Assembly (NCBI GenBank): GCA_949372605.1
Contig: CASIAE010000008.1
Coordinates: 62,001-126,000, forward strand
Direction: 5' to 3'
Source: an uncultured Flavobacteriaceae bacterium
GTDB lineage: Bacteria > Bacteroidota > Bacteroidia > Flavobacteriales > Flavobacteriaceae
DNA: 64,000 nucleotides
Each line of letters begins with the position of its first letter. The stretch's first letter is position 1. Below, in pieces: positions 30,018 through 53,019 of this stretch. A program made the position numbers and the translations under genes. The notes under the pieces are model-generated. The model saw only the letters and a list, made by a program, of their open reading frames with translations. It ran no database searches and had not been told where the DNA came from.

Positions 30018-31478
30018 ATGTTCACTCCTGGATTAATTTTATTGCTCGTTTTAGCTTACTTCATTTTGCTAGTATCGATTTCTTATTTCACCAGCCGAAA
30101 AGACGATAATCTTACCTTTTTTAAAGCCAACAATAGCTCCCCATGGTATTTGGTTGCTTTTGGAATGGTGGGGGCATCGCTGTCGGGAGTTACTTTTATT
30201 TCTGTTCCCGGCTGGGTTGGAGATTCTGGATTCACCTACTTCCAAGTGGTTCTGGGCTACTTTTTTGGATATTTTATAGTTGCTTTTGTTTTACTTCCCA
30301 TTTATTATAAACAAAATTTAACTTCAATCTATGAATATTTGGCAGAACGTTTTGGTCCTAAAAGTCATAAAATTGGTGCTATTTCATTTTTTATATCAAG
30401 GGTTTTAGGAGCCAGTTTCAGATTATTTTTAGTTGCCATTGTCATGCAGCAATTTATTTTCGATGCTTGGAATGTTCCATTTGAAATTACTGTTACAATT
30501 TCTATTTTCCTGATTTGGGTTTATACCCGCCAAGGAGGAATCAAAACAATTGTATGGACAGATACTATACAAACCCTATTGATGATTTTGGCCGTTGTAT
30601 TTTCACTTTTCTTTATCACACAATCCTTAGGCTATGAGGGGCTAGAATTTCTCAATTCTGATGAGATGAAAAAATACACCCATATTTTTGTGATGGATGA
30701 CTTCTTGGCTAGAAACCATTTTGTGAAATCTTTCTTGGGCGGAGTATTTATTACCATCTGCATGACAGGATTGGATCAAGACATGATGCAAAAAAACCTA
30801 ACTTGCCGATCGTTAAAGGATGCTCAAAAAAACATGGTGGTCTTCAGTTTTGTAATGGTTTTTGTCACCTTTTTATTTTTACTGTTAGGTGCTTTAATTT
30901 TTATTTATGCCGAGAAGAATCAAATCGCAATTCCTTTATTGGATGGCGCTCCAAAAACAGATCTCCTTTTCCCCAAAATTGCACTAAGTGGTTACTTAGG
31001 AATCACGGTTGGAGTTGTATTCATTTTAGGATTAATTGCTGCAGCATATAGCAGTGCAGACAGCGCCCTGACCTCCTTAACCACTTCCTTTTGTGTGGAC
31101 TTTGTCAAAATGGACAAACATTCAGAATTAGATCAAAAGAAAATAAGAAAGCGTACACACATTGGTATGAGTCTTGTTTTGATTCTTGTCGTAATCGCCT
31201 TTAAACACATTTTAGACCGCAACGTTATTGATGGTTTACTAACCGTAGCCTCTTATACTTATGGTCCACTTTTAGGACTCTTTGCTTTTGGGATTTTCAC
31301 TCCCTATAAGATTCAAGATGCTCAAGTGGTTTGGGTAGTGCTTGCTTCAATTGGGTTGATTTTCCTGATCGGAAACCTTCCTAAGGCACTGTTGGGAGGA
31401 TATGAAATTGGTTATGAATTACTTCCGTTAAACGGTTTAATAACCTTATTAGGTTTAATACTGATTCGTCGAAAGTAA
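30018..31478 (+). CDS. Sodium:solute symporter (SLC5/SSS family)
   Basis: 486 aa with about 13 transmembrane segments. An N-terminal helix ([19 protein letters not shown]) is followed by the family's [20 protein letters not shown] region, the core helix [31 protein letters not shown] and the helix with [18 protein letters not shown] that holds the second sodium-site serines/threonines. The substrate could be proline, a sugar or another small solute; the sequence does not decide. It converges with the CoA-binding protein gene, overlapping its 3' end by 24 bases. Confidence 0.92.
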
Positions 31479-31817
31479 AACCAAAGTGCAAGCATGCTCC
31501 CATTCAATTCCTGTCTTGGTTAAAAGTGCTGATAAATCTGCATTTTCGGAGCCAGGATTAAACAAAACTCTCTTGGGATTTAAAGACAAAATATAATCGA
31601 AATAATCTATTTGATTGCTTTTGTTCAGATAAAGTGTGACGGTATGAATGTCCTCAAAATGAGTCAAATCATTGTGAATTATTACATCTGAAACAGTTCC
31701 TGATTTTTTTCCAATGGCAACAACTGGATGCCCATGCTTGACTAATCTATGAAGTGCAGTGTAAACAAATCTTTTTGGGTTTAAAGAAGCGCCTATTATG
31801 AGGGTTTTGAAAGATAC
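31455..31817 (-). CDS. CoA-binding (YccU-like) Rossmann protein without a canonical start codon
   Basis: The frame directly follows the fabH-like stop (TAG 31818-31820) in the same phase. It reads [20 protein letters not shown], then [30 protein letters not shown] and [13 protein letters not shown]. This is a complete CoA-binding domain protein of about 118 aa, usually beginning MKKTLVIGAS. No ATG, GTG or TTG precedes the Rossmann motif; the codons from 31817 are GTA TCT TTC AAA ACC CTC ATA ATA GGC. The first canonical start, a TTG at 31667, would delete the nucleotide-binding half. Either a rare start (for example ATA), readthrough from the upstream gene, a lost start codon or a base error is involved. 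The 5' limit given is the stop-to-stop boundary, not a proven start. Confidence 0.7.
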
Positions 31818-32825
31818 CTACCAATTGATCATTACGCTACCCCAAGTAAAACCACTTCCAAAAGCAGCAAGGACAACCTTGCCCCCTTCTTTTACTTTTC
31901 CTGCTTCCCAAGCCTCTGTTAAAGCAATAGGAATTGACGCAGCGGTTGTGTTTCCGTATTTCTGAATGTTATTGTAAACTTGATCATCACTCAACCTAAA
32001 TTTTCTCTGAATGAATTGAGCAATTCTCAAATTTGCTTGATGCGGAATTAAAAGATCAATATCTTTTGACTCCCATCCATTTTTTTCCAAGCCCTCATTG
32101 ATGACTTCTGAGAAACGCGTTACGGCATTTTTAAAAACAAACTGCCCGTTCATGTAGGGATAGAAAGAAATATCATCGGGATTGTTGTCAGCAATAATCT
32201 CAGGAATCCATCGACTTGTGTTAGGGTCTATAATCGATAACTCCTTTGCGTGTTCTCCTTCCGAATGAAGATGAGAAGACATTATTCCTTTAGATAAATC
32301 TGTTTCTCTAGAGACTACAGCAGCACCAGCGCCATCGCCAAAAATCACAGAAACCCCTCTACCTCGAGTGGTCATGTCTAAACCTCCAGATTGATTTTCA
32401 GATCCAATCACAAGGACGTTTTTATACATTCCTGTTTTTACAAATTGATCCGCAGTCGACATGGCATAAACAAAGCCAGAACATTGTGTTCTTATGTCCA
32501 TGGCAGGACAAGTGGGTATGCCTAATTCTTCTTGAACAATCACGCCTGAACCTGGAAAGTAATAATCAGGGCTTAATGTTGCAAATAAGATCAATTCAAT
32601 ATCATTGGTCGCAATTCCTGCACGCTTAATGGCAATTTTGGCAGCCTTAACTCCCATTTTTGCAGTAGAGTTCCCATCTCCTTTTTTGATGTGTCTGCGT
32701 TGCTCAATACCAGTTCTTTCAATAATCCAATCACTGGAAGTGTTCATCATTTTTGACAAATCGTCATTGGTAACTATATTTTCAGGGACATACATCCCAA
32801 GCCCAGAGATTCTAGAATTATACAT
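31818..32825 (-). CDS. 3-oxoacyl-ACP synthase III (FabH) family protein
   Basis: 335 aa thiolase-fold condensing enzyme. The catalytic triad is intact: Cys115 (RTQCSGFVY), His261 (LIPHQANLRIAQF) and Asn291 (KYGNTTAAS). The C-terminus GSGFTWGSVMINW is typical. Because it is grouped with a UbiB-like kinase and a TetR regulator rather than with fatty-acid genes such as plsX/acpP/fabF, it may be a paralogue serving a specialised lipid or ketoacyl product rather than the housekeeping initiator. It is 77 bases downstream of the AarF-like gene and directly upstream of the CoA-binding frame. Confidence 0.88.
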   Translation of the reverse strand: MYNSRISGLGMYVPENIVTNDDLSKMMNTSSDWIIERTGIEQRRHIKKGDGNSTAKMGVKAAKIAIKRAGIATNDIELILFATLSPDYYFPGSGVIVQEELGIPTCPAMDIRTQCSGFVYAMSTADQFVKTGMYKNVLVIGSENQSGGLDMTTRGRGVSVIFGDGAGAAVVSRETDLSKGIMSSHLHSEGEHAKELSIIDPNTSRWIPEIIADNNPDDISFYPYMNGQFVFKNAVTRFSEVINEGLEKNGWESKDIDLLIPHQANLRIAQFIQRKFRLSDDQVYNNIQKYGNTTAASIPIALTEAWEAGKVKEGGKVVLAAFGSGFTWGSVMINW

Positions 32826-38354: not shown

Positions 38355-38624
38355 TTAGGCTAATTTAGCTAGCTTATCGTTCATTGATCTAATCATTTTA
38401 GTCAATTCTTCACGGATGGCTTTGAATTGTTTTTTAAAACCTCCTCCTTTAACGTGATTGACTTTTTCGATTGTCTTATCAAAAGCAACTATGGCTTCGT
38501 CAATGAGCTTTTCACTCTTCTTCAAATCAGCTTCAGGATGAGACAACTCCCAGATATATACTTCTTCAATAAACCCACCTATATTATTATTGAGTTCTTT
38601 TTTGAAATCTTTAATGCTTGGCAT
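38355..38624 (-). CDS. Small conserved helical protein
   Basis: 89 aa, charged and predicted all-helical, starting MPSIKDFKKELNNNIGGFIEE and ending NDKLAKLA. No signal or membrane segment. The segment WELSHPEADLKKSEKLIDEA and the basic Gly patch KGGGFKKQFK are its most distinctive parts. I recognise it as a kind of small protein common in flavobacteria but know no function. It converges with the DUF4369 lipoprotein (2-base gap) and has a plausible own promoter. Confidence 0.75.
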   Translation of the reverse strand: MPSIKDFKKELNNNIGGFIEEVYIWELSHPEADLKKSEKLIDEAIVAFDKTIEKVNHVKGGGFKKQFKAIREELTKMIRSMNDKLAKLA

Positions 38625-38638
38625 AATTTTATTTTATG

Positions 38639-38671
38639 CAAAGGTACGTAGAATTTAGATTTTGACACAAT
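38639..38671 (-). promoter_or_regulatory. Candidate promoter for the 89-aa protein
   Basis: On the minus strand ATTG (38671-38668), 21-base spacer, TACCTTTG (38646-38639). The -7 box is an exact TAnnTTTG match and ends 15 bases before the ATG. Confidence 0.5.
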
Positions 38672-38699
38672 GTGCCTGTGGCTATTCGTTAAAGAAAAT

Positions 38700-39107
38700 T
38701 TAGCCGCTGTACTTAACAAAGTTCCTAGGTGTTTCATACAAAACCACCTCAATCGTCTTGTCTTTATCTAGATGCTTGACCAATTTATTATAGATTACAA
38801 CCGAAATATTTTCAGCAGTCGGATTTAAATCAAAAAAATCAGGCACTTGAAGATTAAGATTTTTATGATCAAAAGCATCTTCTACTTCTGATTTGATCAG
38901 ATCTTTCAAAACTTTCATGTCCATCACATAACCAGTTTCAGGATCGATTTCGCCTGTTACACTCACGATTAATTCATAATTATGACCATGATAATGAGGA
39001 TTTGCACATTTACCAAAAATGGACTCGTTTTTTGTGTCATCCCATGATTTCACAAATAGTCGGTGTGCAGCATTAAAGTGTGCTTTTCTACTAATTGTTA
39101 CTTTCAT
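38700..39107 (-). CDS. queD: 6-carboxytetrahydropterin synthase (QueD/PTPS family)
   Basis: 135 aa T-fold enzyme. Zinc-binding histidines are in HFNAAHRL (about 9-16) and HYHGHNYEL (about 38-46). The catalytic Cys is in FGKCANPHYHG, and later residues include TGYVMDMKVLK and DHKNLN. ETPRNFVKYSG is the conserved C-terminal region with a Glu. Role: queuosine (7-deazaguanine) pathway, or tetrahydropterin synthesis as the alternative. It overlaps idi by 4 bases. Confidence 0.92.
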   Translation of the reverse strand: MKVTISRKAHFNAAHRLFVKSWDDTKNESIFGKCANPHYHGHNYELIVSVTGEIDPETGYVMDMKVLKDLIKSEVEDAFDHKNLNLQVPDFFDLNPTAENISVVIYNKLVKHLDKDKTIEVVLYETPRNFVKYSG

Positions 39108-52687: not shown

Positions 52688-52885
52688 TTAACCGTTAATC
52701 AGTTTAAAATAAAATCCTACTACTTTAGAAAGAACCGTGTCGGCCCCCCAAATTAAAATCGAAAAAAGAACGGAAAACACCAACACTACGACAACCAGTC
52801 TTTGTAATTCTTGACGAGGAGTCCATGAAACGTTATTGCTTAGTTCCTCAAATGAATCCTTAATGTATGTTATTATTGTTGACAT
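52688..52885 (-). CDS. secE: Preprotein translocase subunit SecE
   Basis: 65 aa single-span subunit of SecYEG. An amphipathic helix (IKDSFEELSNNVSWTPRQEL) is followed by the transmembrane helix (LVVVVLVFSVLFSILIWGAD) and a short tail. I start it at ATG 52885. The frame extends 35 codons further upstream to 52990, but that part is the tRNA-Trp gene and not coding. It lies 17 bases downstream of the tRNA. Confidence 0.96.
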   Translation of the reverse strand: MSTIITYIKDSFEELSNNVSWTPRQELQRLVVVVLVFSVLFSILIWGADTVLSKVVGFYFKLING

Positions 52886-52902
52886 TTTTGTTTCAATTTT
52901 TG

Positions 52903-52975
52903 CACGGGTTGAGAGGCTCGAACTCCCGACACCTGGTTTTGGAGACCAGTGCTCTACCAACTGAGCTAAACCCGT
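52903..52975 (-). tRNA. tRNA-Trp (anticodon CCA)
   Basis: 73-nt cloverleaf on the minus strand. The acceptor stem is ACGGGTT / AACCCGT. The D arm includes TAGCTCAGTTGGTAGAGCA. The anticodon stem-loop CTGGT-CTCCAAA-ACCAG carries anticodon CCA. The T arm has GGGAGTTCGAGCCTCTC. Discriminator base G is followed by CA, not a full encoded CCA, consistent with the cca gene at 1.3 kb. It sits between tuf and secE, a position often seen in Bacteroidota. Confidence 0.97.
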
Positions 52976-52990
52976 TTTTATTTGACACAA

Positions 52991-53019
52991 AAGGCATCAC
53001 GCTTTTCGCGTGACACCTT
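52991..53019 (-). terminator. Hairpin between tuf and tRNA-Trp
   Basis: Stem AAGG-x2-TCACGC with loop and matching GCGTGA-x2-CCTT, interrupted by a 2x2 internal loop. On minus it ends CCTTTTGTG, a short U-tract. Could partly terminate the tuf transcript or serve as a processing signal releasing the tRNA. Confidence 0.6.

Follow-up and report, generated by a model that had tools for sequence, protein, structure and literature searches.

In an uncultured member of the Flavobacteriaceae (genome G000; GenBank assembly GCA_949372605.1), an intact gene of the CoA_binding_2 family carries GTA at the position where two congeners carry ATG and TTG as start codons. The reading preferred here, to which a probability of about 0.45 is assigned, is a real start-codon substitution to GTA that has produced a hypomorph of an otherwise ordinary fabH-linked gene. 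The substitution itself is well defined and probably real, an ordinary evolutionary event whose likely outcome is either weak production of the protein or a gene on its way to loss, making this a small curiosity and not a new mechanism. The window, meaning the whole 64,000-nucleotide stretch that was analysed (G000:C8:62001-126000, from contig CASIAE010000008.1), comes from an assembly of 1.39 Mb in 27 contigs with an estimated completeness of 69.7%.

The gene follows a fabH-type beta-ketoacyl-ACP synthase III gene (31818-32825, reverse strand, 335 aa; PF08541 and PF08545; TIGR00747, E = 9.4e-109) that has an ATG start and a TAG stop at 31820-31818. The CoA-binding frame (31455-31817, reverse strand), established from reading of the codons, a profile match, and a survey of homologues, consists of 120 sense codons and a TAA (31457-31455). 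It directly abuts the fabH TAG, keeping the phase of fabH, and its codons run GTA TCT TTC AAA ACC CTC ATA ATA GGC GCT TCT TTA AAC onwards, with GTA (31815-31817) at the aligned start position and a Rossmann motif spanning codons 7-16. The first-pass annotation had described a complete frame with no ATG, GTG, or TTG start, in phase with the fabH stop, and the codon reading confirms this; the frame is present within the interval it gave (31455-31820), of which 31455-31817 is the coding part and 31818-31820 is the fabH stop. Its further point, that the only canonical start is a TTG whose use would delete the half carrying the Rossmann motif, also holds: no ATG, GTG, or TTG occurs in the frame ahead of this TTG (codon 51, 31665-31667), from which a product of only 70 aa, lacking the N-terminal portion of the fold, would result. 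On the opposite strand, a convergent gene for a sodium/solute symporter (SSS; 30018-31478, forward strand; TIGR00813, E = 1.3e-44, below the cut-off of the model) overlaps the 3′ end of the CoA-binding gene by 24 bp.

The frame matched the PF13380 profile at 70.3 bits (curated cut-off, 22.8; E = 2.4e-19), with residues 5-114 aligned to profile positions 3-114 of 116, and the closest solved relative was 3ff4 chain A ('uncharacterized protein'; E = 6.5e-31; residues 4-118 aligned). Judged from its sequence, the frame is a real gene with a complete CoA_binding_2 domain, CoA binding being a putative activity named from the family label.

The order of fabH, CoA-binding gene, and convergent symporter is common to G000 and its two nearest relatives, the congeners G004 and G018, and the block from fabH to the CoA-binding gene measures 1371 bases in each. 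The codon directly 3′ of the fabH stop is GTA in G000 (after TAG), TTG in G018 (after TAG), and ATG in G004 (after TAA), and the frame downstream is collinear in all three. The equal block length leaves no indel that could mask a start, and with GTA aligned to the ATG and TTG of the congeners this points to a substitution of the start codon itself, as in the loss of a start codon that the first-pass annotation had listed among its possibilities. A separate candidate, a start at the TTG of 31824-31822 hidden by a frameshift, was rejected: this TTG is out of phase, the block is of equal length, and the codons are collinear in the three genomes. Of the two congener starts, the ATG of G004 is the stronger evidence: the G018 region, with its TTG, is full of split frames, for which reason G018 was set aside as a yardstick. 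These split frames (L070, L073, and L074) occur in collinear genes and suggest indel errors, making the bases of that genome less trustworthy.

Of 39 homologous loci examined, G000 alone had no canonical start; in the other 38 one occurred no later than codon 11, and 36 of these had an ATG within codons -3 to 4. This count omits L031 and L032, whose contigs are already represented by L002 and L003, as well as L042, which is partial and has 40% identity, and covers the genome matches with a locus, two of the 32 matches having none. GTA at the start position was seen in one genome only and is not conserved among orthologues. It lies two bases from ATG, two from TTG, and one from GTG, so that passage through GTG would be the shortest canonical route.

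Starts were compared more widely over 184 kb of G000 (C8:42001-126000, C4:1-80000, and C7:1-20000), about 126 kb of which aligned to stretches of G004 and yielded 130 frame pairs. A coarse survey, flagging only conserved stretches of at least 20 codons before the first shared canonical start, returned four of the 130 pairs: the CoA-binding gene, in which codon index 50 holds the first shared start; a frameshift at C7:12129; and two pairs in which a conserved upstream stretch precedes a common ATG at codon index 22 or 24. In a finer survey, ten pairs showed, ahead of their first shared start, an ATG in one of the genomes facing a non-canonical codon in its partner. These comprised three with a shared ATG within two codons, one with a poorly conserved lead (7/17 identical), five with broken frames (one broken in G004), and the CoA-binding gene. 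In our judgement of these alignments, the CoA-binding gene appears to be the sole conserved start lost by substitution among the 130 pairs, the surveys being tests of shared starts and not of use.

Under the preferred reading of a weakened start, the start codon would have stepped through GTG to GTA, at which initiation by fMet-tRNA would proceed as at a near-cognate codon with weak output. Reinitiation by ribosomes fresh from termination at the adjoining fabH TAG might help, and the outcome would be a hypomorph of a gene that is lacking from most of the genus. In two E. coli reporters, GTA is reported within groups of codons initiating at 0.01-6.5% and 0.5-15.7% of ATG (PMC6925171). Non-canonical initiation is probably not foreign to this lineage, given that infC of G018, G004, and G025 (L116-L118) lacks an ATG, GTG, or TTG before its conserved N-terminus. 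From these sequences the infC start in the relatives is probably ATA (ATA GCA ATA/ATT CG..), common to both genera; the start was read in these relatives only, no infC having turned up in the assembled sequence of G000. Elsewhere the infC start codon is reported as ATT in E. coli and ATC in Streptomyces (PMC5472188). An A at position -3 is reported to be favourable in Flavobacterium johnsoniae (PMC6847099). Position -3 of the GTA is the T of the fabH stop and not A, a weak argument against efficient use of the GTA because both congeners share that T. Also counting against efficient use, the codon is not conserved and the junction had no distinctive or conserved RNA structure, with start-region folding z-scores of 0.50, 0.31, and 1.02 in the three genomes.

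The gene appears weakly constrained in the clade of G000, G004, and G018, as estimated from substitution patterns. Pairwise omega was 0.45 (G000/G018), 0.25 (G000/G004), and 0.37 (G018/G004), and for fabH 0.07, 0.06, and 0.05 in the same pairs. Lineage-unique synonymous and non-synonymous changes in the CoA-binding gene numbered 4 and 5 in G000, 2 and 6 in G018, and 7 and 6 in G004 (fabH: 13 and 4, 2 and 0, and 20 and 4, respectively). Pooled, 13 of the 30 unique changes in the CoA-binding gene were synonymous against a simulated neutral share of 0.27 (P = 0.04), and those unique to G000 or to G018 were, taken alone, compatible with no constraint (P = 0.20 for G000, P = 0.68 for G018). No stop interrupts the frame of 120 codons, and all three genomes encode an identical C-terminus.

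Within the genus, a match to the gene at E ≤ 0.001 was obtained in three of 22 genomes (G000, G004, and G018), and ten others had only weak partial matches (E = 0.007-0.4). Sixteen other fabH loci of the genus (L053-L068) were compared, and in every one the gene is lacking from the junction of fabH and the convergent symporter. In these loci the symporter frame overlaps the end of fabH by 11 nt (11 loci), 14 nt (2 loci), or 54 nt (3 loci), leaving no room for the gene, and such an overlap is what a clean deletion joining the convergent gene ends would leave. No match to fabH was obtained at the threshold used in G008, G014, and G020. Of 30 loci, 24 have a convergent symporter next to the CoA-binding gene (three of these 24 belong to this genus), and 10 have fabH on the strand of the CoA-binding gene within the sequence retrieved; the recurrence of these neighbours suggests that the neighbourhood is old. 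Missing from the 16 further loci and weakly constrained, the gene looks dispensable in the genus. ATG, TTG, and GTA at one start codon form a neat three-species series, with the gene missing from the same place in 16 congeners, and may show a dispensable gene fading, its start codon weakening before loss. For annotation, a gene caller accepting canonical starts only would truncate this gene to 70 aa or drop an intact frame.

The alternative that survives best, a close second but less likely than not, is that the start codon was lost recently and no useful protein is made, the gene being a very young pseudogene. A null allele would parallel the absence of the gene from the rest of the genus, and it agrees with the low constraint across the clade, with G000-unique changes that fit neutrality, and with the fact that two of the three bases of GTA differ from the start of each congener. 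Against it stands the intact frame, a weak argument because the chance of no stop arising in nine random changes is 0.66, together with the activity of GTA as a start in the E. coli reporters, which was reported as low and not zero (PMC6925171).

Less likely again, though still a serious rival, is an error of base calling or consensus, or a minority strain allele, behind which the true codon would be GTG or another canonical start. GTG is a single base away, the assembly is fragmented and incomplete, and G000 frames are broken relative to G004 at C4:39-44 kb and C7:12.1-12.7 kb, so that the consensus may contain errors. However, where the window can be paired with G004 (approximately 1-56.9 kb, the last 7 kb not pairing), no broken gene was judged real, and the flaws elsewhere in G000 are mostly indels. 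Moreover, even if one base were wrong, a canonical codon would need one further true difference from both congeners. The window frames flagged for a stop or break were judged to resemble antisense or upstream non-gene frames; a check of frames of at least 250 aa gave one case in the window, with its stop at residue 47, ahead of the shared ATG.

Outside the window, clustered small indels break frames at G000:C4:39283-43712 and C7:12157-12700 (L113, L114, and L105), representing either consensus errors or a pseudogene patch. At C7:12575 the N-terminal half is unlike that of G004, probably through a frameshift, and three more G004 frames of at least 250 aa, which are possible genes, have inner stops on C4 of G000 (16.8-17.6 and 28.9-30.6 kb). 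The stretch directly after the window (L095; G000:C8:126001-146000) is not collinear with G004, its short matches being scattered over many G004 contigs in the manner of dispersed repeats or mobile DNA.

A more elaborate proposal, and a doubtful one, is that GTA is a working and deliberately poor start fed by ribosomes terminating at fabH, which would hold the CoA-binding protein to a small, IF3-sensitive fraction of FabH and constitute a near-cognate start in the Bacteroidota akin to that of sigR. The native GTC start of Streptomyces sigR is reported as proven and as repressed by IF3 (PMC5472188). No natural GTA start was found in the literature searched on GTA/GUA start codons (papers with a single term lying outside the search), start-codon loss, and YccU.

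Readthrough of the fabH TAG into a FabH-CoA-binding fusion protein, which the first-pass annotation had considered on the strength of the shared phase and which the lack of any base between the frames also favours, is very improbable. TAG terminates 10 of the 47 window frames taken as genes (two of 49 frames, 38579-38767 and 52688-52996, were left out as doubtful). It also ends fabH in 17 of the 19 loci from the genus, and in 15 of these 17 no CoA-binding frame follows. The genes of G004 and G018 carry their own ATG or TTG, the fabH and CoA-binding genes of G025 overlap in another phase, and no suppressor anticodon occurs among the 17 tRNA matches of this partial (69.7% complete) assembly. The least credible of the alternatives, initiation at the ATA of 31799 or 31796 on the pattern of the probable ATA start of infC in G004, G018, and G025, is unlikely because these codons belong to the conserved KTLxxGAS stretch with which the fold begins, and the KTL residues would be dropped. 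Homologues start a few residues earlier, each of the 38 other loci having a canonical start at codons -3 to 3, and G004 and G018 also contain the ATA ATA pair although both have canonical starts.

Set beside known systems, the weakened-start allele favoured here resembles each in part. The G000 protein is like other members of the CoA_binding_2 family (PF13380; 3ff4 chain A) in having the complete domain over residues 5-114, but the homologues at the 38 other loci have a canonical start and the G000 gene does not. Like sigR of Streptomyces, the gene is intact and shows a GTN codon that is not GTG in its start position; mutation proved the sigR start, however, and regulation depends critically on it, whereas the GTA of G000 is a candidate start and both congeners are canonical at this position. 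The infC genes of G004, G018, and G025 share with it an intact, conserved frame lacking ATG, GTG, or TTG before the conserved N-terminus, though the probable ATA of infC is common to two genera and the GTA was seen in one genome. To our knowledge, few non-canonical starts outside infC have been proven, and the GTA would be added to these if shown to work. Start-loss alleles and young pseudogenes are a known kind in bacteria, and the G000 gene is similar to them in that a canonical start has been lost from a gene under weak constraint which most congeners lack, and unlike them in a frame that bears no other damage.
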